From NCBI RefSeq assembly GCF_000021965.1, contig NC_011832.1:2025242-2089241 (forward strand): a DNA stretch of 64,000 bases, in the 5' to 3' direction. Source of the DNA: Methanosphaerula palustris E1-9c. Its GTDB lineage: Archaea > Halobacteriota > Methanomicrobia > Methanomicrobiales > Methanospirillaceae. Below, piece by piece: positions 8,045-27,808 of the stretch (positions are counted from its first letter, which is position 1; each line of letters starts with the position of its first letter). The notes under the pieces were generated by a model, which was not told the origin of the DNA, made no database searches, and saw only the letters and a program-made list of their open reading frames with translations. The translations under genes and the position numbers were made by a program.

Positions 8045-9943
8045 ATGATGAAGCGTGGATGGTATATCATCGCAGGCGCCCTGCTCGTCGTTCTGATGAT
8101 CGGTGCGGGCTGCACAACAGTAAAGACAGAGACACAAGATAACCTGACCTTTTACACCGAGCAGTATCCCCCGTACAACTACCTGGAGAACGACACACCG
8201 ACCGGGATCATGGTCGACATGCTGAACTCGACGATGAAGGAGATGGGCAAGGGACCGGCCGATATCCGGGTCGCCTGCTGGACCAGCGCCTACCAGACCG
8301 TGCTCACCACACCGAACACGGTGCTCTTTGCGACCTCGCGCACCTCTGACCGTGAATCGCTCTTCAAGTGGGCCGGCCCGGTCCTGACTGAGAAGGCGGT
8401 GGTCTTCTCCTACCGCGAACGACCGGTCGTCGTGAACGGGACCGATGATCTGAAACACTACCGGATCGGAGTGGAGGCCGACGATGCAGCAATCGGAAAG
8501 CTCCTCGACCAAGGGGTCCCGAAGGACCAGATTGTGATCGCCCCCGACCCCCTGACGATGATCCAGCAGACCCAGAACGGCACGACCGACCTCTTCGCTT
8601 ACGGCGAGGGAGCCGGCCACTTCTGGATCGCACAGTCAGGGACCCGGCCCGGCCTCTTCTCGACGGTCGCCACCATCGGGGAGGATCCGGTCTATTATGC
8701 GTTCAACCGGAACACCTCGGACCAGACGGTCCAGGCCTTCCAGCAGGCCCTCAACCAGACCACCCAGAAGGATCTCGATCAGATTCTCGCCAAATACCTG
8801 CCAGAGTACGGCCTCGCCCGGCTCAATTATCTGACCGAAGAGGCCAGGCCGTACAACTTTGAGGCGAATGGGACCGCGCAGGGGATCTCGGTCGACCTTC
8901 TCAGGGCTGCCCTCTCCAGGCTCGATGTTCCGGAAAATGCCACCTCCGTCAGGGTCGTCCCCTGGACGGAAGGGTATGCGAGTGCACAAAACAACAGCAG
9001 TACAGTCCTCTTCTCAACCTCACGGACCCCTGACCGGGAGAACCTCTTCCAGTGGGCCGGGCCGATCGGGCGAAATGACTACGTCCTCTTTGCAGATCAG
9101 ACCAGAAAGATCACGATCACGAACACCACCGACCTCACCCGGTATCGGATCGGTGCCGTCACCGATGACATCACGGTCCAGTACCTGGCCGACCATGGTG
9201 TGACAAAGGATCGGTTGATCCTCGATTCCGATGCTGCATCAGCGGCCAGGCGGCTCGCCTCAGGGGAGACCGATCTCTTTGCCTATGCAGCGCTCCCGGG
9301 CCGGCTGGTGCTGAACAGCACGGTATCTGATCCGGAACGGTTCCAGGAGGTATACACCATCGGGGGAGGCGACTTCTATTATGCATTCAACCGGAATGTT
9401 TCACCCCTGCTGGTCAGCGCTTTCCAGCACGGCCTCGACGACGTGAAGAACCAGAAGGACCAGAACGGAGTCTCGGACTATGAACGGATCATGTACAGGT
9501 ATACCGCGGTCAGGTCTTCGACCTCGGGGGTGAACGAAAGCCAGGTGACCGCTCTCATCAACCGGACTAGCACCGATCTGGCTGGTGACGCAACTGGAAC
9601 GCTTCGGCGGATCAATGCCGGCGAGGCCCCGTACCGCGACCAGACTCAGAAAGACCTCTACGTCTTCGTCTACGACACGAATGTGACGATGGTCGCCCAT
9701 GCTGACAACCCGACACTGGTCGGGACGAACTACCACAACAAGACTGATGTCACTGGCTATCCATTCCGCGACCGGATCGTGCAGGGGGCGTTGAAGAACA
9801 CCACCGGCTGGGTCGACTATGTCTACACGAACCCGACCGACTTCAACCTCTTCAACAAGACGACTTATTACCGACTGGTTCGCGGGAGCGACAATCGGGA
9901 CTACGTGGTCTGTGCCGGCACCTTCAAGGAGAACTCAACCTGA
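8045..9943 (+). CDS. Lipoprotein with two solute-binding domains and a Cache domain
   Basis: A 632-aa paralogue of the preceding gene, complete at the 3' end. A lipobox-like IGAGC near residue 23 is followed by two SBP family 3 domains (~32-255, ~265-490) and a C-terminal Cache-like extracellular sensing domain from ~495, with the typical DLYVFVYDTNVTMVAH strand pair and YxNKTDVTG loop. There is no transmembrane helix after the Cache domain and no kinase or chemoreceptor output, so if it signals it must act through a partner. The soluble histidine kinase 108 bp downstream is a candidate by position only. Many NxT/NxS sites suggest surface glycosylation. Confidence 0.85.
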   Translation: MMKRGWYIIAGALLVVLMIGAGCTTVKTETQDNLTFYTEQYPPYNYLENDTPTGIMVDMLNSTMKEMGKGPADIRVACWTSAYQTVLTTPNTVLFATSRTSDRESLFKWAGPVLTEKAVVFSYRERPVVVNGTDDLKHYRIGVEADDAAIGKLLDQGVPKDQIVIAPDPLTMIQQTQNGTTDLFAYGEGAGHFWIAQSGTRPGLFSTVATIGEDPVYYAFNRNTSDQTVQAFQQALNQTTQKDLDQILAKYLPEYGLARLNYLTEEARPYNFEANGTAQGISVDLLRAALSRLDVPENATSVRVVPWTEGYASAQNNSSTVLFSTSRTPDRENLFQWAGPIGRNDYVLFADQTRKITITNTTDLTRYRIGAVTDDITVQYLADHGVTKDRLILDSDAASAARRLASGETDLFAYAALPGRLVLNSTVSDPERFQEVYTIGGGDFYYAFNRNVSPLLVSAFQHGLDDVKNQKDQNGVSDYERIMYRYTAVRSSTSGVNESQVTALINRTSTDLAGDATGTLRRINAGEAPYRDQTQKDLYVFVYDTNVTMVAHADNPTLVGTNYHNKTDVTGYPFRDRIVQGALKNTTGWVDYVYTNPTDFNLFNKTTYYRLVRGSDNRDYVVCAGTFKENST

Positions 9944-10008
9944 GGGTTCACCCCCCTCTTCCCAGCCGGGGGTGGTCTGGTCGAATATGCCTGAGGGAGA
10001 GGAAAAAC

Positions 10009-10016
10009 ATTATATC
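10009..10016 (+). promoter_or_regulatory. TATA box of the histidine kinase gene
   Basis: ATTATATC is centred about 40 nt upstream of ATG 10052. The predicted transcription start near 10038 lies downstream of ATG 10025, which rules that codon out. Confidence 0.5.
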
Positions 10017-10051
10017 TATTATCTTTGCCGTTCAATGCAGGTTCAGGTCAG

Positions 10052-12640
10052 ATGATCGCACAATACCATATCCTCTATGTCGATGACGAACCCTCTCTGC
10101 TCGAAGTAGGCAGGATCTTCCTGGAGAGATACAAGGATTTCACCATAACGACCGCACTGAACGCACCTGAAGCGATCCAGATGCTCGAACAGGAGAACTT
10201 CGATGCTATCATCTCCGATTATCAGATGCCAGGGATGAATGGTATCGAGTTCCTCATCGAAGTGCGGACACGGTTCGGATCGATCCCGTTCATTCTCTTC
10301 ACTGGCAGGGGACGCGAGGAGGTGGTCATCCAGGCCATCAATAATGGTGCGGACCATTATCTCCAGAAGGGCGGGGAACCGGTCTCACAGTTCGCAGAAC
10401 TTGGACACAAGGTCAGACTGGCAGTCCAGCAGCGACGTGCAGAGGCAAGCATCCGGGATCATGAACGCCGGGAAGCCGACATTCTCAACTTTCTGCCTGA
10501 TCCCACGTTTGCCATCGATACCCGGGGAGTGGTGATCGCCTGGAATCGGGCCATGGAAAAGATGACCGGTGTCAGCGCCGCAGAAATGCTGGGAAAAGGG
10601 AAGTATGAGTATGCGATCCCATTCTATCATGAACGCCGGCCTGGTTTAATCGACCTCATCCTTCACGACGATCCAACCGTCGCAGCCCGATACCCTACCA
10701 TGAAGAGGAACGGAGAGACGATCGTTGGAGAATCGATAAGTTCGGCCCTCTTCAACGGCAAGAGAGCGAAGATATGGTTCACCGCAGCCCCCCTCTACAA
10801 TAATTTAGGTGTCATCACAGGGGCCATCGAATCGATCCGGGATGTCACCGAGATCAAACGGACTGAAGAGGAACTCCTCAAGAAGAACGACGAACTCTGC
10901 GCCTCATATGAACAGATAACCGCGACTGAGGAGGAACTCCGGGCCAACCTGGATGAACTGTCCCGACAGGAGCAGGCGCTGCGGGAGAGCGACAGACGGG
11001 TCAGACAGAAACTGGAGAGTCTCCTCGCCCCCGAGGATACCACGGATTCGCTGGACCTTGGGGACCTCATCGATACCGAGACCCTTCTACTGCTCATGAC
11101 TGATATCACCAGGCTGACCGGTGTGATCACGGCGATCCTCGACACGAAAGGAAATGTGCTCGTGGCCTCTGGCTGGCAGGAGATCTGTACCAGATTCCAC
11201 CGGGCCAACCCGGTGACTGCCGGTTTCTGTACCGAGAGCGACCTCCATCTTGCCAACAATTTGAAACAGGGGGAATATGTAGCCTACAAGTGCAGAAATA
11301 ACCTCTGGGATGTGGTGACGCCCCTCTATATCGGCGATAAACACATGGGCAACATCTTCATGGGCCAGTTCATCTATGACGATGAGGTCGTCGACGAATC
11401 CATCTTCATCGAGCAGGCGCTGAAGTACGGGTTCGATCGGGACGAATATTTAGCGGCGTATCACCGTGTTCCCCGGATCAGCAGGGAGAGAGTCGATGAA
11501 CTGATGGGGTATCTGGTGAAACTTACGAGTTTCATATCCCGACTCAGTTATAGTAACCTCAAACTCGCCAGGACGGTGAAGGAACGGGACGACCTGCTTG
11601 GATATCTGCATAAGAGCGAAGATAAGTTCAGAACCCTCGTGGAGAACATTCCACAGAAGATCTTCATAAAGGACAGGGATTACCGATATGTCTCGAGCAA
11701 TGAAAAGTTCGCCCAGGACTTTGGGATTCATGCCGACGAGATCGTGGGGAGATCGGACACCGACCTCTTTTCGCCAGAGTTCGCTGCCAAGTACCATGCC
11801 GATGACATCAGGGTGATGGAGACAGGACAGACAGAGGAGTTTGAAGAGATTTATCGTCTGGAAGGAAGAGATATCTGGATCCATACGATTAAGACCGTCG
11901 TGCGAGATAAGAATGGCGAGATCACCGGGGTGCTCGGTGCTTTCTGGGACATCACCGAACGTAAGCGGGCCGAAGAGGCGCTGCATCTGGCAAACAGGAA
12001 ACTTACCCTTCTCTCAAGCCTCACCAGGCATGATATCACCAATCAGCTCACCGTGCTGATGGGGTACCTGGCCATCCTCAGAATGGAACTATTCGATCCT
12101 GGACTCGATGATGCTTTTCTAAAAATTTCGACCACATTACAGCGAATTTCCACCATGATTCTGTTCACCAGAGAATACGAGGCAATCGGTGTCATGGCTC
12201 CGGTCTGGCAGAACATCCATTCACTCGTCGACACTGCAGCCGTACAGACACCGTTCGGACAGGTCGAACTGAAGAATGATCTCCCGGCCGACCTGGAGGT
12301 GTTCGCCGACCCGCTGGTTGTCAAGGTATTTTATAATCTGGTGGACAATTCGGTGCGGTACGGCGGGAAGATCACGATCATCCGGTTCTCTGTTCAGGAA
12401 CTTGGTGATGATCTGGTTGTCGTCTGTGAAGACGACGGCGAAGGTATCGTTCCAGAGGAGAAGGAGATGATCTTCGAGCATGGTTTTGGGAAGAACACCG
12501 GACTTGGTCTCTCCCTCTCAAAGGAGATTCTCGATATCACCGGCATCACCATTCGCGAGACCGGTGAACCGGGAGAAGGGGCACGGTTCGAGATGATAGT
12601 GCCCAGAGGGGGGTACCGTTTTGAGTCAGGTACTCGTTAG
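10052..12640 (+). CDS. Hybrid sensor histidine kinase (REC-PAS-PocR-PAS-HATPase)
   Basis: A soluble 862-aa signalling protein without membrane helices. In order: a receiver domain (1-120) with Asp56 in SDYQMPGMNG; a PAS domain (~145-265) ending in DVTEIKRTEEE; a coiled coil (~270-330); a PocR-type ligand-binding domain (~330-505) with FCTESD and MGNIFMGQF; a second PAS (~520-640) ending in WDITERKRAEE; and a kinase core with an H-box-like RHDITNQL (His660) and the HATPase G-box GFGKNTGLGLSLSKEI. The H-box of the RHDI..QL type is common in methanogen kinases. REC at the N-terminus means it is probably itself phosphorylated. No cognate output regulator is adjacent. Confidence 0.88.
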   Translation: MIAQYHILYVDDEPSLLEVGRIFLERYKDFTITTALNAPEAIQMLEQENFDAIISDYQMPGMNGIEFLIEVRTRFGSIPFILFTGRGREEVVIQAINNGADHYLQKGGEPVSQFAELGHKVRLAVQQRRAEASIRDHERREADILNFLPDPTFAIDTRGVVIAWNRAMEKMTGVSAAEMLGKGKYEYAIPFYHERRPGLIDLILHDDPTVAARYPTMKRNGETIVGESISSALFNGKRAKIWFTAAPLYNNLGVITGAIESIRDVTEIKRTEEELLKKNDELCASYEQITATEEELRANLDELSRQEQALRESDRRVRQKLESLLAPEDTTDSLDLGDLIDTETLLLLMTDITRLTGVITAILDTKGNVLVASGWQEICTRFHRANPVTAGFCTESDLHLANNLKQGEYVAYKCRNNLWDVVTPLYIGDKHMGNIFMGQFIYDDEVVDESIFIEQALKYGFDRDEYLAAYHRVPRISRERVDELMGYLVKLTSFISRLSYSNLKLARTVKERDDLLGYLHKSEDKFRTLVENIPQKIFIKDRDYRYVSSNEKFAQDFGIHADEIVGRSDTDLFSPEFAAKYHADDIRVMETGQTEEFEEIYRLEGRDIWIHTIKTVVRDKNGEITGVLGAFWDITERKRAEEALHLANRKLTLLSSLTRHDITNQLTVLMGYLAILRMELFDPGLDDAFLKISTTLQRISTMILFTREYEAIGVMAPVWQNIHSLVDTAAVQTPFGQVELKNDLPADLEVFADPLVVKVFYNLVDNSVRYGGKITIIRFSVQELGDDLVVVCEDDGEGIVPEEKEMIFEHGFGKNTGLGLSLSKEILDITGITIRETGEPGEGARFEMIVPRGGYRFESGTR

Positions 12641-16362: not shown

Positions 16363-16403
16363 GCGTGAAGAGATCTCTCTCCCTCGGAGAAAAAAAGGGT
16401 TCC

Positions 16404-17885
16404 CTATCCGGACTGGGGATCGTGAAGCCGGATGTACTCGAGCAGTTCCTTCGAGAAGTCGGACTCGAGTCGAAGGGCCTGGTAATCGATGACGATCCCG
16501 TTCAGGTACTGCATCAGCAGCTGAGCGCCGCCGGCGCCGGTCGGGATGATGCCGGTGAAGATGAATCCAAGATCCTCGAGCAGACCGGCAGCCGATGCTG
16601 CTGCAGGGTCACTGAGGTCCAAACTCGCCTCGATCACCTGCACCCCCTCCCGCTTCAACCGGATCACCTCATGCCTGACCGCCATGGAGAGATCAGCACC
16701 AAACCGGGAGAAGTGGATGGAGGCTACGAGCATCCCGGTCTTGATCACGCTCTGCAGTTCCGTTCTGACGGCATCATCGAGGAATTGACCCGGTGCGATC
16801 GTTGCCGGAAGGCCGATATCAGCACAGATCGCCCCGACCATCCTGGCATGGACTGAGGGTGGATAGAGGGTGACCGCCTCCGGTGAAACCAGATACTTGC
16901 AGGCGATGGCAACCGATTCACGCTGCGCCAGATCCTCTGCGATCCGGTGGAAGGAGAGGGTGGCCGGCGCATGGGCCAGCAGGAACCCGGAGGTGTGGTA
17001 GCCGAGCTTGTGGAAGACATGCTGCGAGATCGTGTGAGCGGTGACCGGCTGGCTGAAGAGGCAGGTCAGTCCCTGTTCCCGACCCACCTGTTCAAGGAAC
17101 GTGACCAGACGGGGGACGACCGCATGACCCCGGTACCGGCACTTCGTGGCCGCGATCGCCACCTCGGCAGACCCCGGGTCGAGCGGGTCGAAGACCAGCG
17201 CCACATGCCCGGCCACGTCACCGGTTCCCGTAACCGCTACCGCAGAGATGAGCGAACCTTCATGGTTCATCGCCCGGAGACGGTCCGGGTAATAGATATG
17301 CTCGTACACGTACGAGTAGCCGTAGGCATCGTAGACACACCGGGCCACCTCGACCGCCTCCACAGGATCCATCAGCCGTATCGCGATCTCCCCGGGGTCG
17401 GTGACGACGACATCGTCGGTCTGCACCGGGTGCCCCGCTCCTTCAAAGATAGAGGCATGCGGCAGGTACCGGACAAAACGGGTCTCCTTCCCCCCGTTCC
17501 CAAGGTTACAGAACTCCATCTCATCCATCAGGTGCCGGATCAGGTGACTGCCCAGCCCGGACGAGGCGGTCTTACCGTCCGGGTCCGGTCGAAAGTCGGG
17601 GATCTGTTCAGGATCGAACGGAAGACCGGTGTCATGGATCCGGATCTCCAGCCCGGTCGGGGTGATGACCCCCGTCAGACCGCAGACTCCTCCCCCCTCC
17701 GGATAGGCGTGGGTGATCACATTGGAGACCGCCTCCTCGACGGCCACCTCGATCCGCTGCCGGTCACGCTGATCGAACCCGGCAAGTTCTGCGATATCGC
17801 TGACCAGATGAAGGGCCATCGGCAGGTACTGCGGCTCTGCCGGAACCTGTAACTGGCAGCGATCACGATCGTCGGTCTTCATCAC
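16404..17885 (-). CDS. RsbW-like ATPase fused to a GNAT-type domain
   Basis: A 493-aa fusion. Residues 1-145 are a HATPase_c_2 anti-sigma/serine-kinase domain: N-box EEAVSNVITHAYPEG, then HDTGLPFDP and SSGLGSHLIRHLMDE. A GNAT acyltransferase-like domain follows (~190-330, AIAATKCRYRGHAV as the acyl-CoA-binding turn). A C-terminal part (~335-493) looks like a second, degenerate GNAT-like or cyclic domain. Such ATPase-GNAT fusions are known but uncharacterised. Its start overlaps the stop of the PaaK-like gene by 4 nt, so it is translated as part of that operon. It could be an output that reads the STAS protein and modifies or binds an acyl product. Confidence 0.78.
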   Translation of the reverse strand: MMKTDDRDRCQLQVPAEPQYLPMALHLVSDIAELAGFDQRDRQRIEVAVEEAVSNVITHAYPEGGGVCGLTGVITPTGLEIRIHDTGLPFDPEQIPDFRPDPDGKTASSGLGSHLIRHLMDEMEFCNLGNGGKETRFVRYLPHASIFEGAGHPVQTDDVVVTDPGEIAIRLMDPVEAVEVARCVYDAYGYSYVYEHIYYPDRLRAMNHEGSLISAVAVTGTGDVAGHVALVFDPLDPGSAEVAIAATKCRYRGHAVVPRLVTFLEQVGREQGLTCLFSQPVTAHTISQHVFHKLGYHTSGFLLAHAPATLSFHRIAEDLAQRESVAIACKYLVSPEAVTLYPPSVHARMVGAICADIGLPATIAPGQFLDDAVRTELQSVIKTGMLVASIHFSRFGADLSMAVRHEVIRLKREGVQVIEASLDLSDPAAASAAGLLEDLGFIFTGIIPTGAGGAQLLMQYLNGIVIDYQALRLESDFSKELLEYIRLHDPQSG

Positions 17886-19162
17886 TGACCCTCCTTCAGC
17901 CGATGGTCAACGATCCGCCGCAACTTTCCGGTCCTCGGATTGACGATCAGATCGCCATGCTCGATCCACTCGATCGCCAGGGGATGGACCAGGCCGTCCC
18001 TGAGGAGATCGTTGAACATCGGTCGACCCTGATAGACTGCAGCCCGGACCCTCTCCGTCAGGGATGCCGGCACTGCAGCACCCTGCCGGCTGGCGATCCG
18101 GAGGGTCAGCAGGTCGCGCCGGTCCTGGTGAGTCACGACCAGTTGAAACCCGGTCACCTCGATCGTCTGGTTGAAGCCGGCCAGGATAGCATGGATATCG
18201 TCGTAGTTCAGCGTCATCGGCCCGACGCGGGCACCCTCCTCAGACCGGCCGAGCAGCCGGAACCGCCGATCGGGCGTACCGGGTGCGTCCACCCAGACAC
18301 CACGGTCGCCGGCCGGGTACCGGATCACCGGCATCAGCAGCCGGGTCAGGTTGGTGACCACCACCCGCCCCTCCCGTCCGACCTCGTCGATCGGGAGGCC
18401 GGTGGTGTCATCGACGATCTCGATGATACTGGAGTCGCCGAAGGTCCGGTGTTCATTGAATCCGCAGGAGGGGTCGCCATAGCCGATATGCCCGGCGTCG
18501 ACGCTCGCGTAGCCGACGGTCAGCACCGAGATCCCCGGAAAGACCTGGGCGAGGAGATCCCGCTGGTCGGGATACATCGCCTCGCCGCCATAGTAACACC
18601 GGTCGATCGAGAGGCTGATCCCCTGGTCGCGGACATACTCGGCCAGGTGGAGGAGGGTGGTCGGCACCCCGAGCAGCACGTTGACTTTGTAGTCCTGCAG
18701 GGTGTGAACGATGAACTCGAATGGTGCAGCCCCGCCTATGGGAAAAGTCAGCACATTCGCCGCTGAGTTCTGCAGCGAGTCGTTCAGGAAGATGAAACTG
18801 GTATACAGTTCCCCGGCATAGAAGAGGTTCGCGATCCGGTCCCTATCGGCGATGGAGTTTTTGGCCAGACCGGCACCGAAGACCCGGGTGAACTCTGTCC
18901 ACTCCTCCTTGGTGTAGACCGTGAACTTCGGCTGGCCGGTCGTCCCGCCGCTCTTGTAGAGGTAGCCCCCATCGACCCCAAGTGGCGAAGTCATGACGCT
19001 GCTCTCTGACTGGCCATGACCCTCCCAGTATGCCGTCTGGTCGATGACCGGCAGGTCGGCAATCTTCCAACCATCAGTGGGGACGTCGCTGTACAGGTCA
19101 CGATAGAACGGGGAATGTTCGCGGGCATACCCGACCACATGGTCGAGAGAGTAGATCGTCAT
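17882..19162 (-). CDS. PaaK-like AMP-forming ligase (adenylating enzyme)
   Basis: A 426-aa adenylate-forming enzyme related to phenylacetate-CoA ligase. The P-loop-like SGGTTGQPK (71-79) binds ATP, and later GYASVDAGHIGY and a YPAGDRGV segment match the A4-A5 region. It should activate a carboxylic acid as its acyl-AMP and pass it to CoA or a protein thiol. ATG 19162 overlaps the TGA of the upstream gene (4 nt); a longer frame upstream runs through that gene's coding sequence and is not credible as a start. PaaK-like proteins in methanogens are sometimes called coenzyme F390 synthetase, but the LuxC/LuxE neighbours argue for acyl or aryl acid activation. Confidence 0.8.
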   Translation of the reverse strand: MTIYSLDHVVGYAREHSPFYRDLYSDVPTDGWKIADLPVIDQTAYWEGHGQSESSVMTSPLGVDGGYLYKSGGTTGQPKFTVYTKEEWTEFTRVFGAGLAKNSIADRDRIANLFYAGELYTSFIFLNDSLQNSAANVLTFPIGGAAPFEFIVHTLQDYKVNVLLGVPTTLLHLAEYVRDQGISLSIDRCYYGGEAMYPDQRDLLAQVFPGISVLTVGYASVDAGHIGYGDPSCGFNEHRTFGDSSIIEIVDDTTGLPIDEVGREGRVVVTNLTRLLMPVIRYPAGDRGVWVDAPGTPDRRFRLLGRSEEGARVGPMTLNYDDIHAILAGFNQTIEVTGFQLVVTHQDRRDLLTLRIASRQGAAVPASLTERVRAAVYQGRPMFNDLLRDGLVHPLAIEWIEHGDLIVNPRTGKLRRIVDHRLKEGQ

Positions 19163-21672
19163 GCCTGCACCTCCCGCCGATCGATGATCGTTTTGAGTTT
19201 CCCGCTGTTGGCGATCCGCTCGAACACCGATGCAGCGACCGGTTCGATGAAGAGGTCGGTGGTCTTGAATTCGACGACCGATAGGGACAGTTCGGGGTAC
19301 TGATCGAGCAACATCTGGCGTACGACCCCGGCGTCGAGGCCGCTGCCCACATCGATCCTGACCGTGATCTGCTCCTGTCCTCCCTTCAGGTCGAGGAGGA
19401 GCTGGACCTCGCCGGCATAGGCGAGGTGCTCGGTCAGCAGGTTCACGAACTTCCGGTAGTTCAGGAACGGACCGCCCGACCGGAAGACATCCCCGTGCCG
19501 GCCCATCAGTTCGAACCGCGGACTCTTCCGGCCGCACGGACACGGACCGGGCACCCACCGTCCGGTGTCGCCGATCTCGTACCTCACGATCTGCTGACCG
19601 TGCCGCTGCCGGGAGGTCAGAATCAGCCGTCCGACCTCGTCGCCGACGACCGGTTCGTCGGCGTCAAGCTTTTGGATCTCCAGCCACTGGTTCGCGGTCA
19701 TCAGGTGGTGGACCCCGCCCTCGCAGTGCGGGCAGGCGAAGGCCAGCGGACCGGCGTCGTTGGAACCGTAGACCGCCGACCTGATTATTTCGATCCCGAA
19801 TTCTTCGCGGAGATGCGTCACCTGGGCGGCGGTGAAGTGCTCGCCGCCGTAGAAGATCTTCTTCACCCCGCCGTACTCTTTGAGGAGGGCCCCGTGCTCC
19901 TCGAAGAGGGCGTTCAGGTAGACCGGGATCCCGAGGAGGGTGTTCACCCGGTACTTGACGATCGCCTCGGCGACCTCCCTGGTCTCGGGGACGGCCGTCA
20001 TCGGGAACTGGATCGCCCCGAGGTCCTCAAGGATGGTGAAGAAACTGATGAACCCGCCGTACAGGTGGCCGGCGTTGAAGAGGTTGATGCACCGGTCGGT
20101 GGCCGGATCGAGCCCGGCCGCAAAGAGGCCGTCGGCCGCCGCCGCCATCTGGTCCCGGTAGTCCTGGTACGAGAAGATCGAGAGCTTCGGCGCCCCGGAA
20201 CTCCCCCCGCTCTTGAACGAGAGATGCTCGGTCCTGGGGTCCACCATGATATGATGGAAATCATCCTTGGTCATCACCGGCGTCCCCTCAGGCAGGAACG
20301 GAGCGGTCGGGGCGACGAACTCGGCGAGCGAGGCCACTCCGTCACCGAGCGAGCCCGGATCGACCGAGACCCGCCGGGAGTACCGCTGCAGGGCGTAGAC
20401 CCCGTCATGCGGTTCACCAGGGTACGATGAGAAGGTCCTACCCGGCTGCCGGATCCGGTCAGCCCCAGCTGCGATCAGCAGGGATGAGAGCGGGGCCACC
20501 TCCTCCCGGGTACACCCGAGGGTCACGGTCTGCAGGTATGCACGCATCGGACGGAGGGTACTGACGATCCGGTCCCTGGTCAATGGTTTGATCCAGAGGG
20601 TCCGGAAGAGCGGCGATGGGCGGAGTCCGGGCTCCGGGTCGATCAGCAGTCGCCAGCTCCGGTCGGCCGGTTCGACCACGGCCCCGTGGTCCAGGCAGCC
20701 CTCCAGCCTGACCAGTTCGGTGACCGTCGTCACCTCGGCGGCCTCGGCCCGGTCGGGGAGGGTCCGGGGGAAGGTCGGGGCGACCGTGGTCAGCACCTTC
20801 CCGAGCCGGTCGGCAAACACCTGCAGATCGGCAGGGTCGCTCGTCTCCAGGTACAGGCACTGGGGACTCGAACAGGCCTGCTGCTCGAGGATACAGACCT
20901 CCTCTGCAACGCCTTTGAGAAGGGCCGGATCGGTTCCGGCCGCTGCGGTCAGGTACGAGAAGGAGATCCGGTGTCCCCAGACGATCATCTCGGTGCCGCG
21001 AGGAGCCTCCTTCTTCACCGCGTCGACGGTCTCCTCCCCCCCCCAGACCGCAATACCGTCGGCCAGGGCGAAGAGATCGTGAAGGGCTCCCTGATCCTGC
21101 GAGGAGAGCGGAAGGACGTAGATGAACGGGGCCAGCGAGCCGGTCTGGTCGGCGTCGACGAGCGCCTGCAGCAGCACCTGCGGGAACCTGCCGCTCTTTC
21201 TGCTCGTCTTGAGCAGGTTGATGTTGCCGGCGAGCAGCCCTTCGATGACGCTGAGCGGACCGACCGTCGGGACGTTGGCCGGGGCCAGGTGCACCAGCAC
21301 CCCGAGTGGAGCCCAGCCCTCGAAGACCGGTTCGGTGAAGGTCACCCGCCGGATGGCGAACGGGTCGACGCCGCCCAGTTCGCGGCGCAATTTCTGCTCG
21401 AGGTTCTCCTTCGCAAGGAACCGGCCGATCGTCGCCAGGGTCTGGTCTGCTTCAGCAGGTGGGAGACCGGTCTCGATCAGGGCCTGCTGCAGGTCTGGAA
21501 CGGTGCCGGCCAGGATCGCCGTACCGAGTCGGTCGGCCGCAGCCAGGAGAACCATGGGATTCAAACGGAGGGCGAGGTCGTCTGCCAGCAGAGCCAGCAG
21601 GGTTTTGAGCAGTTCCGGGAGTTCGGCAGCGTCGCGGATCGCTCCACGCCAGAGCATCGGTGCAGCGGTCAT
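19159..21672 (-). CDS. LuxC-like acyl reductase fused to PaaK-like ligase
   Basis: An 837-aa two-enzyme fusion. Residues ~1-455 resemble LuxC, the NADPH-dependent acyl-CoA/acyl-protein reductase that makes an aldehyde: APANVP (131-136), GN(I/L)NLLKTS (149-157) and the catalytic Cys267 in EQQACSSPQ. Residues ~456-837 are a PaaK/LuxE-like adenylating domain with FKSGGSSGAPK (486-496) and a Cys-rich CPHC/CPCG pair. The fusion would activate an acid and reduce it to the aldehyde in one chain. It overlaps both neighbours by 4 nt. No luciferase (luxAB) gene is in the window, so the aldehyde is not obviously for light production. Confidence 0.82.
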   Translation of the reverse strand: MTAAPMLWRGAIRDAAELPELLKTLLALLADDLALRLNPMVLLAAADRLGTAILAGTVPDLQQALIETGLPPAEADQTLATIGRFLAKENLEQKLRRELGGVDPFAIRRVTFTEPVFEGWAPLGVLVHLAPANVPTVGPLSVIEGLLAGNINLLKTSRKSGRFPQVLLQALVDADQTGSLAPFIYVLPLSSQDQGALHDLFALADGIAVWGGEETVDAVKKEAPRGTEMIVWGHRISFSYLTAAAGTDPALLKGVAEEVCILEQQACSSPQCLYLETSDPADLQVFADRLGKVLTTVAPTFPRTLPDRAEAAEVTTVTELVRLEGCLDHGAVVEPADRSWRLLIDPEPGLRPSPLFRTLWIKPLTRDRIVSTLRPMRAYLQTVTLGCTREEVAPLSSLLIAAGADRIRQPGRTFSSYPGEPHDGVYALQRYSRRVSVDPGSLGDGVASLAEFVAPTAPFLPEGTPVMTKDDFHHIMVDPRTEHLSFKSGGSSGAPKLSIFSYQDYRDQMAAAADGLFAAGLDPATDRCINLFNAGHLYGGFISFFTILEDLGAIQFPMTAVPETREVAEAIVKYRVNTLLGIPVYLNALFEEHGALLKEYGGVKKIFYGGEHFTAAQVTHLREEFGIEIIRSAVYGSNDAGPLAFACPHCEGGVHHLMTANQWLEIQKLDADEPVVGDEVGRLILTSRQRHGQQIVRYEIGDTGRWVPGPCPCGRKSPRFELMGRHGDVFRSGGPFLNYRKFVNLLTEHLAYAGEVQLLLDLKGGQEQITVRIDVGSGLDAGVVRQMLLDQYPELSLSVVEFKTTDLFIEPVAASVFERIANSGKLKTIIDRREVQA

Positions 21673-22841
21673 AGCGCCTCCCGCTGCAACAGTTCAGCAG
21701 CAGCCACGGCACAACTCCGGTTCTTGGAGACGCCGGCCCTGCCGAGCACTTCGAAGTACGGGGTCTCGAGCCCGCAGGGACAATCGTGATGCATCACTGC
21801 AAGGTCGCCCATCAGCACGCTGACGGCCGGCACCGAGGTGGTGTGCGGAGTGATGAAGTGGAGGAAGCCTGGTTCTCCGTCATCCAGGGGCTCAAGGGTG
21901 GTGACATCCCGGATCAGCACCCGCGACCAGACCGGCTGATGGAGATGGTGATGGGAGCACTCCACGTATGGGACCGAGTGCTCGACCGAACCGTAACCCT
22001 CGCGACAGCGATCGTCGGGGATGCCGAGGCGATCGGTGATCAGTGCGTACAGATCCAATTTTGGAATCTGTTCGCCGGCCGCCCCCTTCCAGCCGCCGCC
22101 TAAGAATACCAGCGAGTCCGGCGGGAGGGTGACGGAGAGGCCGAGGTCGCGCATCCGCACCAGCGTGAAGTACAGGAACGAAGGGAACCCGAAGATCCGC
22201 ACCGGCAGTCCCTCGTCTGCATACTCCTGCAGGGTCCGGATCGCCCCGAAGAGGTCGAACTCGTGCGAACCGGTGCCGGTGGCCCTGAGCGCAAAGGTGA
22301 CCCTGGCTTCCTGGGCGAACTTGCAGAGGAAGGTGTTGGTATGCGAGGTCCCGAGGCGGGAGGCAGCGGCCGGTTCATAGGCATAGAGCAGGTAGTTGGT
22401 CGGCTGGTTGGGTTTTATCCATTCATAATACGAGAAGATGGCGGCCACCATCCCCTGCCCCGAGAGGAGGGTAAAGGGATCATAGAACATCTGACTCTTC
22501 TGCCCGGTGGTCCCTGATGAGGTGAGCGAGGAGCAGAGGGTCGACCGGTCGACAGAGAGCAGTTCATGCGTCTTGAAGAAGTTGGCATGAACCATCGGGA
22601 TCCTGGCCAGGTCTCGAATCCTGGTGATCTTAAGCGGGTCGATCTGTTTGGATTCGAGCAGCGCCGCAAAGAACGGCGAGCGTTGTTGATGCCAGAGCAA
22701 TATCTCCTGCATCGCCCGGATGAAGAGGGTGTCCTGTTCAGGGCCGGTTCTATAGGGGTCTCTGCTGTTGCAGAGTAACTGTACAGATGCCAGCGCAGCC
22801 GGGTCCGGCACCATCAGAGGTTTTGTTCGTTGAGTGTTCAT
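21669..22841 (-). CDS. LuxE-like acyl-protein synthetase
   Basis: A 390-aa member of the LuxE/acyl-protein synthetase family (PF04443 type), which adenylates a carboxylic acid and holds the acyl group on a Cys near its C-terminus before transfer to LuxC. The nucleotide motif SLTSSGTTGQKS is at 105-116, and EGYGSVEHSVPYVEC and CPCGLETPYFEVLGRAG are the later core motifs. Cys377, 14 residues from the end, sits where Vibrio LuxE carries its acylated Cys (inference from position). The first enzyme gene after the transporter; 4-nt overlaps on both sides place it in the same operon as LuxC-PaaK. Confidence 0.82.
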   Translation of the reverse strand: MNTQRTKPLMVPDPAALASVQLLCNSRDPYRTGPEQDTLFIRAMQEILLWHQQRSPFFAALLESKQIDPLKITRIRDLARIPMVHANFFKTHELLSVDRSTLCSSLTSSGTTGQKSQMFYDPFTLLSGQGMVAAIFSYYEWIKPNQPTNYLLYAYEPAAASRLGTSHTNTFLCKFAQEARVTFALRATGTGSHEFDLFGAIRTLQEYADEGLPVRIFGFPSFLYFTLVRMRDLGLSVTLPPDSLVFLGGGWKGAAGEQIPKLDLYALITDRLGIPDDRCREGYGSVEHSVPYVECSHHHLHQPVWSRVLIRDVTTLEPLDDGEPGFLHFITPHTTSVPAVSVLMGDLAVMHHDCPCGLETPYFEVLGRAGVSKNRSCAVAAAELLQREAL

Positions 22842-24082
22842 GCTTGATTCTCCTGTGAAGTTGGTTTGGGTTGAGAGACTTTCGGTATGACGAGAACCGC
22901 CAGCGAAACGACGATCGCGGCACCGCTGTTCAGAAGGATGACGGCGTTGATCGGGCTGGTCCCGGTCAGAAATCCGTTGAGCAGATAGGTCAGCGGGACG
23001 ACAGCCACGCAGACCATCGACAGCACCGCAAAGAACCGCCCCTTCATCGCCGGGGGGACCACGGCCTGGAAGAGGGAGAGAGCCATCGTATTCACGATGG
23101 CGATCGCCACGCCGGCACCGATCATCTCCACGGCATAGATGTACCGATCCGCCGAAAGACCGATCGCAGCCTCCATCAGTCCGAGCAGCAGCATCCCGGC
23201 AAAGATCAGCGGATAGGTGTGCATGGGGGTTCGGCGGCTGAAACTGAAGTACAGGGCGGTCAACCCGGACCCCGCAGCCAGGCAGGCCTCGAAGATAGCC
23301 ACCCAGGTGACCGACGCCTGCATCAGGTCATTGACGATCATCGGGATGAAGAGGAGGAGCGGGGCCGAGAAGAAGTTGAAGACCCCGAAGAGCCCCATCA
23401 GGTAGAGCAGAGGCCGGTGGGAGGTGAGGAAGGCGAACCCCTCCCGAAGCTGCTCGATATAGGGGGCCGCTGTGGCTACAGGCGGGATGTTCACCCGAAT
23501 CGAGAGGATGAGAAGGAACGAAGCGCAGAACGAGAGCGCGTTGAAGAGAAATGCTCCGGCGACCCCATAGATCGCCATCAGCACACCCCCGAGCAGGGCT
23601 CCGAAGATACTGGAGAGGTAGACGACACTGGAGTCGACGGCCACGGCTGCTGCGAGGTGATCCCCATCGACCAGTTGCTGCAACGAAGAACTGACCGATG
23701 CCTCGAAGAGCGGAACAAAGACCGCGATGAAGAAGGTGATCAGGTACAGCACCGGCAGGGTCAACGTCCCGGTCGCAATCAACAGAAAGAGCAGGGCGGC
23801 CAGGCACCCCCTGCAGAGGTCGGCCAGGAGCATACACTTCCTCCGGTCGAACCGATCGACAAGGGTGCCCATGAACGGTCCGAAGAGGACGATCGGGATG
23901 AGGTTCAGGGCCATCAGGATCCCGAGGTTGATCCGGCTCTCTGCATCACCCTGAGAGATCACCCACCAGGCCAGGGCGATCGTGAAGAACTTGTCCCCGA
24001 TCGAGGAGATCAGCCGTCCTGCAAAGAGGTGACGGAAGTCCCGGAAGAGAACGAGTGGATGATTGCTGGAGAGGAACGCCAT
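22838..24082 (-). CDS. Major facilitator superfamily transporter (DHA3-like)
   Basis: A 414-aa membrane protein with about 12 hydrophobic helices. The N-terminal FRDFRHLFAGRLISSIGDKFFTIAL start and the LVDRFDRRK loop between helices 2 and 3 are typical of the DHA3 (macrolide/enterobactin exporter-like) MFS group. It likely exports, or less likely imports, a small molecule across the cytoplasmic membrane. Its position between the RsbW-like ATPase (1-nt gap) and LuxE (4-nt overlap) suggests the substrate is the product or precursor of the acyl-activating enzymes downstream. No substrate can be named from sequence. Confidence 0.85.
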   Translation of the reverse strand: MAFLSSNHPLVLFRDFRHLFAGRLISSIGDKFFTIALAWWVISQGDAESRINLGILMALNLIPIVLFGPFMGTLVDRFDRRKCMLLADLCRGCLAALLFLLIATGTLTLPVLYLITFFIAVFVPLFEASVSSSLQQLVDGDHLAAAVAVDSSVVYLSSIFGALLGGVLMAIYGVAGAFLFNALSFCASFLLILSIRVNIPPVATAAPYIEQLREGFAFLTSHRPLLYLMGLFGVFNFFSAPLLLFIPMIVNDLMQASVTWVAIFEACLAAGSGLTALYFSFSRRTPMHTYPLIFAGMLLLGLMEAAIGLSADRYIYAVEMIGAGVAIAIVNTMALSLFQAVVPPAMKGRFFAVLSMVCVAVVPLTYLLNGFLTGTSPINAVILLNSGAAIVVSLAVLVIPKVSQPKPTSQENQA

Positions 24083-24083
24083 A

Positions 24084-24503
24084 TCAGACCCTGTTGAGCG
24101 CGATCGCCAGCGTCAGGATGTTCTGATCGTGATCCCGCCGGTAATGAACCTCGTCCATCATCCGCCGAACCAGCAGGATCCCGAGACCCCCGACCGGCCG
24201 ATGGTCCAGGTCAGCGGTACAATCCGGTTCGGGGACAGCGCAGGGATCGAACGGAACACCCAGGTCCGTGATCTCGACGATAAAACGGCCGGCTGTCACC
24301 GAGGTGCTGACCGTCACCGTCGCCGGAGGAACCTGGTAGGCATAGGTGCAGATGTTCACCACCGCCTCCTCCACAGCCAGTTGCAGGTGCATCAGGCGGG
24401 CAGGATGAAGACCTGCCTCCTCTGCCGCCCTGGTGACAAAATCGATGACTGCCGGGACGATCGACGGATCGCCGACGAAGGTCTCTGCATCAGATACCCC
24501 CAT
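24084..24503 (-). CDS. RsbW-like anti-sigma/serine kinase ATPase
   Basis: A 139-aa stand-alone HATPase_c_2 protein like RsbW/SpoIIAB. It has the N-box EEAVVNICTYAY, the G1 box ITDLGVPFDP and a G2-like GGLGILLVRRMMDE. In bacteria such proteins phosphorylate a STAS antagonist and sequester a partner (partner switching). Here the partner is probably not a sigma factor, since archaea have none; the neighbouring transporter or acyl enzymes, or the ATPase-GNAT protein, are candidates. It starts exactly after the STAS gene stop, so STAS and kinase are produced together. Confidence 0.85.
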   Translation of the reverse strand: MGVSDAETFVGDPSIVPAVIDFVTRAAEEAGLHPARLMHLQLAVEEAVVNICTYAYQVPPATVTVSTSVTAGRFIVEITDLGVPFDPCAVPEPDCTADLDHRPVGGLGILLVRRMMDEVHYRRDHDQNILTLAIALNRV

Positions 24504-24836
24504 TCAGGGCACCCCCCTGCAGGCCTCTTCCACGGTCGAATAGATATCAAAGAGGGTATCAAATCCTGCCACGGACAGCACCTCCTCCACCAGTCCGCCG
24601 GGGGCCGCCAGCACCAGGGTTCCCCCCAGTGACTGTTGCCGTCGTTGGGCAAGCAACAGACTGCGCAGCCCGGCACTGCTGATATAGACAAGACCCGATA
24701 GGTCGAGAACCTGTCGACCGCCACTGATCCATCGGTCACCTGCTGCATCAAACTCGGGAGCAGTCAGCGTATCCAGCCGTCCATCGACCCGGATCAGACT
24801 GCACCCATTCTGGTTTACTTCAGTTATCTTCATCAT
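24504..24836 (-). CDS. STAS-domain anti-sigma antagonist-like protein
   Basis: A 110-aa single STAS domain like RsbV/SpoIIAA. The conserved LDLSGLVYISSAGLRSLL contains the Ser-Ser pair in which one Ser is normally phosphorylated by the RsbW kinase and dephosphorylated by the SpoIIE-type phosphatase. ATG 24836 (or 24833) is preferred over upstream codons because GGTGA lies 4 nt before it, at the very end of the phosphatase gene, whose TGA is 2 nt away. It is thus coupled to both phosphatase and kinase, completing a three-protein switch. Confidence 0.88.
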   Translation of the reverse strand: MMKITEVNQNGCSLIRVDGRLDTLTAPEFDAAGDRWISGGRQVLDLSGLVYISSAGLRSLLLAQRRQQSLGGTLVLAAPGGLVEEVLSVAGFDTLFDIYSTVEEACRGVP

Positions 24837-24838
24837 CG

Positions 24839-26194
24839 TCACCTTACATATCCAGCCTCTGGCCGGCTGATGGCACACAGCGTGATATCATCGCTCTGGG
24901 GAAGAGCGCCCTCATAAGTCAGCACTGCATCAAATATCGCCGACACCACGTCCTCTGCAGTCCGGCCCTTCTGTTCTGAGAGGACCTTGCAGAGGTGCTG
25001 CATGGAGAAGAATTCCCCATCGATCCCCTCTGCCTCAGTGACCCCATCGGTGTACAGCAGCAGAGCGCTCCCCTCCGGCAGCATCGCCTCCTGATCGAGA
25101 TAGGCTGTCGTCTCCCGGATACCAATTGGCGGGGCCTTTACGCAGGTGAGAGGGGTGACCGTCCCGGCCCGGTCCAGCAGGTACGGTGGGAGGTGCCCCG
25201 CCGAGGCGTAGGTGATCCGGCCGGTGCTGATCGTCACCACCCCGCAGAAGATGGTCACAAACATCATCGCTTCATTGTTTCTGCAGAGATGCCGGTTCAC
25301 CTCGGCGAGCACCTGCGAAGGCGTTGCTTCCGGCACAGCCTCGGACCTGATCAGCGAGGCGGTCATCGCCATGAACAGGGCTGCCGGCACCCCCTTCCCG
25401 GAGACATCCCCAACGGTAACAAAGACCTGATCGTCCCCGACCAAGAAGTAGTCATAGAAGTCACCGCCGACCTCCAGCGCCGGCTCCAGTCTCCCGGCCA
25501 CCTGCATCGCGGTCCAGGAGAGGGGACCTGCCGGAAGACCGGCCCGCTGAATCCGCCGGGCCACCGAGAGTTCACCCTCCAGGCGTCCCTGGGATGCGAG
25601 TACGGACCGCTCATGCGTAACATTCCCCAGCATCAGCACGAAGATCGCCATCCCGATCGCATTCACCAGCATGATCGGGATCACCGAGACCGCAAGGACA
25701 TGCACCGTCTGGTCAAGTGGGTCGGCGAAGAGGAGATCGAAGCAGGTCCTGACCACCTCGACCAGCACGGCCAGCAGCATAGCCTCGATCAGACTCACCG
25801 GTCTACCCTGTCGGCGGAACCAGACCATTCCCCAGATCAGCCCTGCTGCCATCGGCCCGAGGGTCCCCCCGAGCGCCATGAATCCTCCCTCCCCGTAACG
25901 GAACAATCCGCCGATGATCCCGGCTCCGAGCCCGACCCAGGGCCCTGCCAGCAACCCTGCAAACGCTGGTCCGATGTCTCTGACACTGAGGATCGCACCC
26001 TCATAGGGGACGCCCGCCAGGGTGCCATAGATCGAGAAGACCCCGCAGATCAGCATGATCAGCAGCCGATTCTTCAGGGTGAACTGCCGGTCAACGATCG
26101 CAGCATACAGTTGGGACCGGGTCAGCAGGTACGTGACCACGATCAGGACCGACATCCCTTCGACGAGATTCACAATGAGATCGATTTCAGTCAT
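24839..26194 (-). CDS. Membrane SpoIIE/RsbU-type PP2C phosphatase with 5TM sensor
   Basis: A 451-aa protein. The N-terminal ~190 residues hold about six hydrophobic helices with the DIGPAFAGLLAGPWVGLGAG pattern of the 5TM/LytS-like sensor domain. The C-terminal PP2C-like SpoIIE domain (~215-445) keeps GGDFYDY, VGDVSGKG, TDGVTEA and the final QSDDITL, which supply the metal-binding Asp residues. It should dephosphorylate the STAS protein in response to a membrane or small-molecule signal. It is the first gene of the operon, with GAGGGG 7 nt before ATG 26194. Promoter elements upstream (26195-26344) are weak; an ATAGTAC-like stretch near 26263 is possible. Confidence 0.88.
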   Translation of the reverse strand: MTEIDLIVNLVEGMSVLIVVTYLLTRSQLYAAIVDRQFTLKNRLLIMLICGVFSIYGTLAGVPYEGAILSVRDIGPAFAGLLAGPWVGLGAGIIGGLFRYGEGGFMALGGTLGPMAAGLIWGMVWFRRQGRPVSLIEAMLLAVLVEVVRTCFDLLFADPLDQTVHVLAVSVIPIMLVNAIGMAIFVLMLGNVTHERSVLASQGRLEGELSVARRIQRAGLPAGPLSWTAMQVAGRLEPALEVGGDFYDYFLVGDDQVFVTVGDVSGKGVPAALFMAMTASLIRSEAVPEATPSQVLAEVNRHLCRNNEAMMFVTIFCGVVTISTGRITYASAGHLPPYLLDRAGTVTPLTCVKAPPIGIRETTAYLDQEAMLPEGSALLLYTDGVTEAEGIDGEFFSMQHLCKVLSEQKGRTAEDVVSAIFDAVLTYEGALPQSDDITLCAISRPEAGYVR

Positions 26195-26344
26195 GTCGAT
26201 CCCCTCGAAGAGTCATCGGCCACTCCGTTCAGACAATCGGCATGATGTAGACTCTGTGGAGTACTATGCCAGAACAGAAGAACACAACCCAGTTCTTAAT
26301 TGAGCCCTGAAGATATTGAAAGGTGTTGCTTTGGATTTAGGGGG

Positions 26345-26851
26345 TCACACCTCCCCTACAGTGGAGACGGGGATCACCTTCACTTCACATCCGCGGTCAC
26401 CCAGACACCGGGCCCGCACAAACCGGAGGGTGAAGGCGGGGTTGAGTCTCTGGACTGCAGGGATCATGAAGGCCAGGCAGCGGGCCGAACACTGGGCAGG
26501 GCTGGCACAGACCTCTTCGGCACATTCGAGAAGAGAACAATCACGGATCAGGATCACCGCAAGATCCTTGCGGCTGGTCAGATGTTCATACCGGATCCGG
26601 GGGCCGAAGAAGATCGTAACGATCGTCATCAGGGTTTCGGCGATCTCGGCAGCCGTGGCTCTCTTCAGGTTGAACATCGAGGCCACCTCCACTGCCCGCT
26701 CTGCCACGACAAGCCAGACCGACATCTCCAAACGGTCAAAGGAGTTGCCGACAGCCGAACGGAAGAGACGATCATAGATCGCCGGAAGTGTAGCGGAGAG
26801 TTCGGCTGCGATCTGCCACTTCTGTGCATCTGATAGAAGATCCTGGTTCAT
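26345..26851 (-). CDS. Cys-rich small protein of methanogen sensor/output type
   Basis: A 168-aa soluble protein. The C-terminal half has seven Cys residues (CSLLEC, EVC, QC, RC, ARC, GCEV) with spacing reminiscent of 4-vinyl-reductase-like and methanogen output domains that bind a metal or ligand; this is a weak resemblance, not a firm family call. GAGGG lies 7 nt before ATG 26851, and the gene starts 27 nt after the Lon-like protease stop, so the two are probably co-transcribed with the upstream thioredoxin. Function unknown; a redox-linked role fits the context. Confidence 0.55.
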   Translation of the reverse strand: MNQDLLSDAQKWQIAAELSATLPAIYDRLFRSAVGNSFDRLEMSVWLVVAERAVEVASMFNLKRATAAEIAETLMTIVTIFFGPRIRYEHLTSRKDLAVILIRDCSLLECAEEVCASPAQCSARCLAFMIPAVQRLNPAFTLRFVRARCLGDRGCEVKVIPVSTVGEV

Positions 26852-26878: not shown

Positions 26879-27808
26879 TCAGGTGGCCAGCCTGACCAGG
26901 TCGTCGATCGTGTCCACATACTCCACCCGGATGCCAATCGTCGACTCGATATACTGCTTTGTATCGACCTGGTACGGGACTTGCTGCAGAACATGGAACC
27001 CATAGTACTGCTGTTCTTCTCCTCTGAACAGAGTGAGTTCGCTATTTTCGCGCGAAAGTAGAAGGAGTGTCTTGCCACTAGCCTTTGCAGCGGTCGCCTT
27101 CTCAACGACCCCGCCGATCGCACCGATCTGTCCGTTCTCATCGATGGTTCCGGTCGCGGTCACATCCTGACGGACCGGCCTCTGATCGAGGACAGAGATG
27201 AGCAGGAGGGTCATCAGGGCGCCGGCGCTTGGACCGTTCACCTCCGGCACCCGATCATCAGCCACGATCGAGATGATCGCATCACTTTCAGATAGGTTGG
27301 TCCCGGTACGATTCTCTGCCACAGCGACAGCAGTGTTCGCAGCGTCCTGGAAGACCTCCCCCATCAGGGGCGAGGTCTGGACCAACACCCTCCCCCGACC
27401 GGGGGTCACCTCGACAGAGATGTTGATCATCGATCCTTCAGAGATGGTCTGACGGGTGATGAACCGGCCGCTCTGATTCAGGACTGTCCGCTGCATCACC
27501 GCCGGGGCCATCAACGACGCCGTCCCCGATATACCAGCAGAACTAACCCCACTATCGTTCACCTGATAAGCCGTGGAGGTCTGCAGATGCGAGCGGTAGA
27601 AGGCAAGTTGTGACGCAGCCTGCTCTGCGCTCAGATTACTCTGGTCAAGCTGGGTCTGAAGTTCTGCATTCGACGCTTCAAGCGAGGTCAGCCGCTCTTC
27701 AACCTGATGACTTCCACCCTGCTCTGAGGTGAAGAGCATGGTGACCAGGGATATGTTGACAATCAGAGAGACGACCAGGACCAGTGATATGAGTCTGGAA
27801 GCTTGCAT
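26879..27808 (-). CDS. Membrane-anchored Lon-like (S16) serine protease
   Basis: A 309-aa protein with one N-terminal membrane helix (5-27), a coiled coil (~35-75) and a C-terminal Lon protease domain without an AAA+ ATPase. The catalytic Ser194 in NGPSAG and Lys237 in GGVVEKATAAK are 43 residues apart, as in Lon proteases. The protease domain should face outward if the helix is a signal anchor. ATP-independent archaeal Lon-like proteins of this design are known but poorly characterised. It lies 42 nt after the thioredoxin gene and 27 nt before the Cys-rich protein, all on one strand, which suggests a small stress or redox operon. Confidence 0.82.
   Translation of the reverse strand: MQASRLISLVLVVSLIVNISLVTMLFTSEQGGSHQVEERLTSLEASNAELQTQLDQSNLSAEQAASQLAFYRSHLQTSTAYQVNDSGVSSAGISGTASLMAPAVMQRTVLNQSGRFITRQTISEGSMINISVEVTPGRGRVLVQTSPLMGEVFQDAANTAVAVAENRTGTNLSESDAIISIVADDRVPEVNGPSAGALMTLLLISVLDQRPVRQDVTATGTIDENGQIGAIGGVVEKATAAKASGKTLLLLSRENSELTLFRGEEQQYYGFHVLQQVPYQVDTKQYIESTIGIRVEYVDTIDDLVRLAT

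Follow-up and report, generated by a model that had tools for sequence, protein, structure and literature searches.

Partner switching among a SpoIIE/RsbU phosphatase, a SpoIIAA/RsbV STAS protein, and a SpoIIAB/RsbW kinase has been described in Bacillus subtilis and its relatives (PMC8256260). On the enzyme side, the LuxC/LuxE fatty acid reductase is represented by a solved structure (7xc6). A leupeptin operon, consisting of leupABCD and an adjacent transporter gene, is described for Klebsiella, Photorhabdus, and Xenorhabdus (PMC8283571, PMC11480411), and the final reduction in leupeptin synthesis is given as ATP- and NADH-dependent (PMC7714073).

Members of these families are brought together in one row of genes in Methanosphaerula palustris E1-9c. 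The row lies in what is called here the window, namely the whole stretch of 64,000 nucleotides that was analyzed, and the genome from which it comes (one contig of 2,922,917 bases) was also used for the counts given below. According to the reading preferred here, to which we give an even chance, the row is an operon for biosynthesis and export that was acquired horizontally from bacteria, and a partner switch gates its acyltransferase.

All eight genes listed in the first-pass annotation, with the domains named there, were found to be intact on the minus strand between positions 16404 and 26194 (Table 1), and the Pfam matches of all eight proteins exceed the curated cut-offs. The very tight packing claimed for them (gaps of 0-2 nt or 4-nt overlaps) was also recovered: the SpoIIE/STAS junction measures 2 or 5 nt, depending on the choice between two tandem ATGs, the STAS/RsbW and RsbW/MFS junctions measure 0 and 1 nt, and the four successive junctions from the MFS gene through the RsbW-GNAT gene are 4-nt overlaps, with every intergenic gap at 5 nt or less. 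Because of these short gaps and overlaps, a single transcript for all eight genes is likely, and the one-operon view is upheld as far as spacing is concerned, since the internal gaps are too short for any ordinary separate promoter. Judged by length, the AT-rich gap upstream of the first gene appears to be the sole site roomy enough for the operon promoter. A scan for sigma-70-type promoters gave matches at chance level; its model is bacterial and not applicable to archaea. No match to the operon was found with the PADLOC models of anti-phage defence.

Table 1. Features of the M. palustris operon and of its surroundings in the window
Feature	Positions	Strand	Basis or remark
NosD/beta-helix protein, 777 aa	12924-15257	-	Three PKD domains and CBM6; likely surface protein
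T7 run, possible archaeal terminator	16390-16396	-	Directly 3' of last stop codon (16396-16390), read from sequence
RsbW-like ATPase fused to GNAT and predicted degenerate GNAT	16404-17885	-	493 aa from GTG, 492 aa from ATG at 17882
Stand-alone PaaK-like adenylating ligase, 426 aa	17882-19162	-	Pfam AMP-binding 5.6e-9; PaaK-type structures matched
LuxC acyl reductase (residues 77-433) fused to PaaK-like adenylation domain (~455-837)	19159-21672	-	Pfam
LuxE-like acyl-protein synthetase, 390 aa	21669-22841	-	Pfam LuxE 5.3e-35
MFS_3 exporter-like transporter, EntS/Mef-like, 414 aa	22838-24082	-	Pfam MFS_3 1.3e-28
Stand-alone RsbW-like ATPase/kinase, 139 aa	24084-24503	-	HATPase_c_2 1e-27
STAS-only protein, anti-anti-sigma type	24504-24836	-	Start 24836 or 24833; Pfam STAS 1.1e-16
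SpoIIE-type PPM phosphatase with N-terminal 5TM-5TMR_LYT membrane sensor, 451 aa	24839-26194	-	Pfam
AT-rich gap upstream of first gene	26195-26344		150 bp; 48% GC vs ~62% in operon
Protein of 168 aa between Lon-like gene and operon	26345-26851	-	No Pfam or NCBIfam match
Lon_C (S16) protease-like protein, hydrophobic N-terminus	26879-27808	-	Same strand, two genes upstream of operon

The first three genes encode a phosphatase, a STAS protein with a phosphorylatable Ser, and a kinase, with catalytic residues intact in alignment, in agreement with the complete partner-switching module proposed earlier. The SpoIIE protein (Pfam SpoIIE 8.4e-54, 5TM-5TMR_LYT 1.9e-36) keeps the Asp motifs GGDFYD, GDVSGKG, YTDGVTEA, and SDDIT; the STAS protein, also above the cut-off for TIGR00377, carries a phospho-acceptor Ser (ISSAGL) that aligns with the Ser of other STAS switches; and the N-box EEAVVN, DLG, and GGLG motifs of the stand-alone RsbW are all intact. 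A genome-wide profile search detected one SpoIIE protein, one STAS-only protein (the other STAS sits within a 681-aa frame), and two strong RsbW-type ATPases, all encoded in this operon, and the remaining RsbW-type matches are weak (no more than ~30 bits) and lie in larger frames. On a native archaeal origin of the trio the evidence is mixed: the STAS protein and the stand-alone RsbW are nearest to trios of Methanomicrobiales, but the SpoIIE phosphatase domain falls outside that clade. The RsbW clusters with stand-alone kinases, apart from the fused domains. Stand-alone STAS, 5TM-SpoIIE, and RsbW modules without Lux genes were common in Methanomicrobiales genomes (L110-L123).

The acyl enzymes retain the residues expected of their families. 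The LuxE protein, whose Pfam match is over the cut-off, matches the LuxE chain of 7xc6, with the C-terminal acyl cysteine of RSCAVAA aligned to the Cys of KGCSLS. In the LuxC-PaaK protein (Pfam LuxC 4.8e-81, AMP-binding 3.7e-10), which likewise belongs to the LuxC family by both Pfam and its catalytic cysteine, Cys267 (QQACSS) aligns with the catalytic QQAC of the solved LuxC and is invariant across a five-sequence alignment. Among NCBIfam models, the MFS protein matches the TIGR00900 H+ antiporter (199 bits, under the cut-off of that model) and an EntS-like one. These domains and cysteines are consistent with the chemistry suggested in the first-pass annotation (acid activation, thioester formation, and reduction, with a probable exporter). 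LuxE and the two PaaK-like domains would adenylate carboxylic or amino acids, the acyl group would pass to the LuxE cysteine and be reduced to an aldehyde by LuxC, the GNAT would acylate an amine, and the MFS protein would export the product.

The last protein of the operon combines an RsbW-like domain (HATPase_c_2 1.7e-23), in which the N-box and G-boxes are kept, with a GNAT domain (Acetyltransf_1 4.6e-7), and its AlphaFold2 model (mean pLDDT 89.5) matches both RsbW/SpoIIAB and GNAT structures. It also has a third part of ~180 aa, a detail absent from the first-pass annotation. When modelled alone, the C-terminal 187 aa match almost exclusively GNAT folds, weakly (best E 3e-4); therefore, the protein is modelled as an RsbW domain, a GNAT, and a degenerate second GNAT. 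By sequence, its solved relatives include the tandem-GNAT proteins MshD (a small-molecule enzyme) and ORF14. The fused RsbW domains form one clade (99/96), apart from the stand-alone kinases; this ATPase domain has degenerated in the Desulfobulbus locus L053 and in archaeal relatives but is intact in M. palustris, and could thus be a second kinase there. In Desulfobacterota, 37 of 345 genomes match the RsbW-GNAT profile, some of them through the GNAT part only, and about 20 sampled proteins are solitary, without partner-switch or Lux neighbours, which implies roles beyond Lux loci. Co-occurrence with SpoIIE is uninformative in Methanomicrobiales, because a SpoIIE match is present in 19 of 21 relatives in any case. 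Literature searches on fusions of RsbW with GNAT, and on operons of the STAS/GNAT/ATP-grasp type, yielded no relevant paper.

Several related arrangements were observed in other methanogens. In two Methanomicrobiales loci (L104, ~8360-11578; L105, ~8490-11811), an RsbW-tandem-GNAT gene is followed by a same-strand transporter gene (MatE by Pfam in L104, a similar protein in L105), with no Lux or SpoIIE genes nearby. A tight row of STAS, tandem GNAT, ATP-grasp ligase, and MFS genes was found in the Methanoregulaceae genome G183 (L108, 5699-9837), from the same family as M. palustris; the row is possibly a second partner-switched acyl/peptide operon. Two STAS genes precede a tandem GNAT in another genome of that family (L109). 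The L108 row may be an independent link between STAS and GNAT, and together the two rows hint that STAS acts with GNAT.

The enzyme core is widespread in bacteria. Relatives of the LuxC-PaaK protein were detected as 356 stretches in bacterial GTDB species genomes, the best 80 of which span Actinomycetota, Pseudomonadota, Bdellovibrionota, Elusimicrobiota, Bacteroidota, Thermodesulfobacteriota, and others. Among the 63 bacterial loci with enough flanking sequence, LuxE and a tandem GNAT were present in all 63, a PaaK ligase in 60, and an MFS gene in 47; since the same core recurs across many bacterial phyla, the combination is far beyond chance. As in these loci, the LuxC-PaaK fusion of M. palustris adjoins LuxE, PaaK, and GNAT. 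Plasmids of Streptomyces and Salmonella also carry the core cluster, and no viral carriage of the LuxC-PaaK family was found. In two Salmonella enterica IncF plasmids (CP054717 and CP053580; L010, 7272-13435, and L011), LuxE, LuxC-PaaK, PaaK, and GNAT genes are accompanied by a short MFS-like remnant and adjoin transposase and recombinase genes, and the GNAT gene is frameshifted or split in L011. No published name or assigned product for the bacterial LuxC-PaaK loci was found in the literature.

The enzyme genes of M. palustris were apparently acquired from bacteria by horizontal transfer, as argued by gene trees, by the identity of its LuxE, LuxC-PaaK, and PaaK proteins to those of Azorhizobium (55-59%), and by the absence of the LuxC-PaaK fusion from the other 392 of 393 sampled Halobacteriota, in which partial LuxC or PaaK matches at threshold were the only hits. 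In the LuxC-PaaK tree, built by a quick method and midpoint-rooted, M. palustris joins Azorhizobium and one Bacteroidota locus, both with RsbW-GNAT fusions (97% SH-aLRT), and in the RsbW-GNAT tree it groups with the Lux-linked proteins of Azorhizobium, Dokdonella, and Lysobacterales (100/99), away from those of Methanomicrobiales. Thus, the enzyme core is already present in bacteria and is no archaeal invention, and its proposed regulation by a switch is the new part.

The distribution of the switch genes provides the main clue to their partner. An RsbW-tagged GNAT is present in ten Lux loci (the window, L013, L014, L023, L025, L045, L053, L159, L161, and L168), in which L045 ends before its GNAT and was counted through its close relative L053. 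SpoIIE occurs in seven of these ten loci, which include related ones and are therefore not independent of one another, and the full adjacent trio of SpoIIE, STAS, and RsbW in six (the window, L023, L025, L045, L053, and L168); in L159, SpoIIE is the first gene and overlaps the MFS gene. With the same profiles, the trio was found in none of the 60 flanked Lux loci without an RsbW domain on the GNAT. In three related Streptomyces/Streptantibioticus loci among these 60, a gene for a PAS/GAF-SpoIIE-HATPase protein lies adjacent, and a few further Streptomyces loci have SpoIIE genes 4.5-7 kb away; Streptomyces genomes are rich in SpoIIE genes. The position of the trio varies, being upstream of the enzymes in Desulfobulbus L053 and downstream in L168, which suggests that the linkage is functional rather than accidental. 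The linkage is not obligatory, because about 20 Desulfobacterota RsbW-GNAT proteins are solitary and Azorhizobium L014 and L161 have no switch genes nearby; none were seen either in L013, which lies on a short contig.

These comparisons also change the earlier picture of the locus. The combination had been regarded as undescribed, but the same gene set without the MFS gene is present in Desulfobulbus (L045/L053) and in another member of the Desulfobacterota (L168), and SpoIIE, STAS, and RsbW genes lie beside the acyl enzymes in Dokdonella and Lysobacterales (L023, L025). Phosphatase/STAS and acyl genes that are never found together would have spoken against a link, and in these five loci they do occur together. 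The proposed comparison of gene order with other Methanomicrobiales had nothing to work on, the fusion being confined to M. palustris within the sampled Halobacteriota. On the other hand, to our knowledge archaea have no bacterial sigma factors, and the argument that the target is something else is sound for an archaeon. In place of the transporter or the acyl-activating enzymes, which had been named as plausible partners, the operon's own RsbW-GNAT acyltransferase is the likely one, because the trio tends to occur where the GNAT is RsbW-tagged and the only switch proteins of the genome are all in the operon.

In the simplest reading, the stand-alone kinase and the RsbW-GNAT protein would exchange STAS. 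The membrane SpoIIE phosphatase would sense a signal and dephosphorylate STAS, the stand-alone RsbW-like kinase would rephosphorylate it, and unphosphorylated STAS would bind the tandem-GNAT protein at its RsbW-like domain and alter the acyltransferase activity, so that the output of the switch would be an enzyme and not a sigma factor, transcription factors being the usual targets of such switch parts in bacteria. That the switch has its target outside the operon, be it a regulator of transcription or some other protein, and is simply co-transcribed with the acyl genes seems quite unlikely: the Lux-free trios of several Methanomicrobiales imply that such modules have other archaeal targets, but the M. 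palustris genome has no further strong RsbW-type protein, and in several bacterial lineages the trio lies next to the enzymes where the GNAT carries an RsbW domain. The GNAT may also act on proteins instead of a small molecule. GNAT control of adenylating enzymes is established, with Pat/AcuA acting on AMP-forming CoA ligases, and a Pat/AcuA-like RsbW-GNAT could acetylate active-site lysines of LuxE, LuxC-PaaK, and PaaK and turn them off, with the switch setting the timing. Three AMP-forming adenylation enzymes do adjoin the RsbW-GNAT gene, and the many solitary Desulfobacterota proteins without biosynthetic neighbours would suit a protein modifier; however, all 63 flanked loci encode a GNAT, mostly without the switch domain, as would suit a biosynthetic step, and the solved tandem-GNAT relatives include the small-molecule enzyme MshD in addition to ORF14, which makes such a regulatory acetyltransferase improbable to about the same degree as a target outside the operon.

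The conserved set of three adenylation domains, an acyl-cysteine carrier, a reductase, a tandem GNAT, and an exporter suggests that an N-acylated aldehyde is made and exported. A long-chain fatty aldehyde or alcohol from a lux-like fatty acid reductase, in place of a peptide-type aldehyde, would agree with the homology of LuxE and LuxC to the luminescence enzymes and with their conserved cysteines, but the two extra PaaK-type domains, the tandem GNAT, and the exporter are conserved parts that would be superfluous for it, and the operon lacks a luciferase (no LuxA/LuxB domain was detected by Pfam among its eight proteins); this product is considered rather unlikely, if a little less so than the two alternatives above. 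For the peptide-type aldehyde, a leupeptin-like N-acylated compound is possibly the best fit by analogy, as a lead and not an identification, and the leupeptin pathway is what we take to be the nearest described chemistry to the M. palustris enzyme set.

The operon bears on what SpoIIE/STAS/RsbW modules control in archaea, which are free of sigma factors. M. palustris holds what seems to be a closed set, in which a phosphatase, a STAS-only protein, a kinase, and an RsbW-tagged enzyme are each encoded once in a single operon, and four purified proteins would therefore suffice for a direct test of the partner. Enzyme-level partner switching may be wider, as is suggested by the occurrence of this architecture in Desulfobulbus, Dokdonella/Lysobacterales, and other Desulfobacterota. 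The broader proposal, that such switching acts directly on a metabolic enzyme (the RsbW-tandem GNAT) in bacteria and, after gene transfer, in a methanogen, which would thereby produce and export a peptide-type aldehyde under the control of a signal, is tentative and somewhat doubtful at present. The family of core enzymes, with its 356 matches in GTDB species genomes and its members on Salmonella and Streptomyces plasmids, may represent an unrecognised class of aldehyde natural-product loci, and production of a bioactive aldehyde by an archaeal member would be unusual, if true.

Compared with the leupeptin operon, which has four biosynthetic genes and an adjacent transporter in ~5.8 kb (K. michiganensis CAV1374, CP011636.1, 315353-321183; PMC8283571), the M. 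palustris set has the same number of genes and a similar total length, the likeness being one of count and length. The leupeptin operon product Ac-Leu-Leu-argininal would need acetylation, ligation, and ATP-/NADH-dependent reduction (PMC7714073), as the M. palustris set may supply. The start of leupA implied by a published primer (MKIAIHN) is unlike that of the M. palustris LuxE, and, unlike M. palustris with its trio, the leupeptin operon has no partner switch described in the available portions of PMC8283571 and PMC11480411. No match was obtained when the leupeptin operon was sought in E. coli genomes, a gammaproteobacterial genome sample, and viral contigs (leupA primer), or with a MukF probe for an Enterobacterales genome. 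With the LuxC/LuxE fatty acid reductase (7xc6), the operon shares the LuxE acyl-carrier Cys and the LuxC QQAC Cys, whereas in M. palustris the LuxC part is joined to a PaaK-like ligase, the operon also encodes another PaaK, a tandem GNAT, and an exporter, and LuxA, LuxB, and LuxD are missing from it. The bacterial LuxE/LuxC-PaaK/PaaK/GNAT/MFS loci (Streptomyces, Massilia, Bacteriovorax, Azorhizobium, Salmonella plasmids, and others) have the same enzyme set, with identity up to 59%, but most of them, unlike M. palustris, have neither an RsbW domain on the GNAT nor the SpoIIE/STAS/RsbW trio. Finally, the same three families as in B. subtilis switching are present, with catalytic and phospho-acceptor residues kept; in contrast to that system, a sigma factor is no possible target in an archaeon, and the operon adds an RsbW-like domain fused to an acyltransferase.
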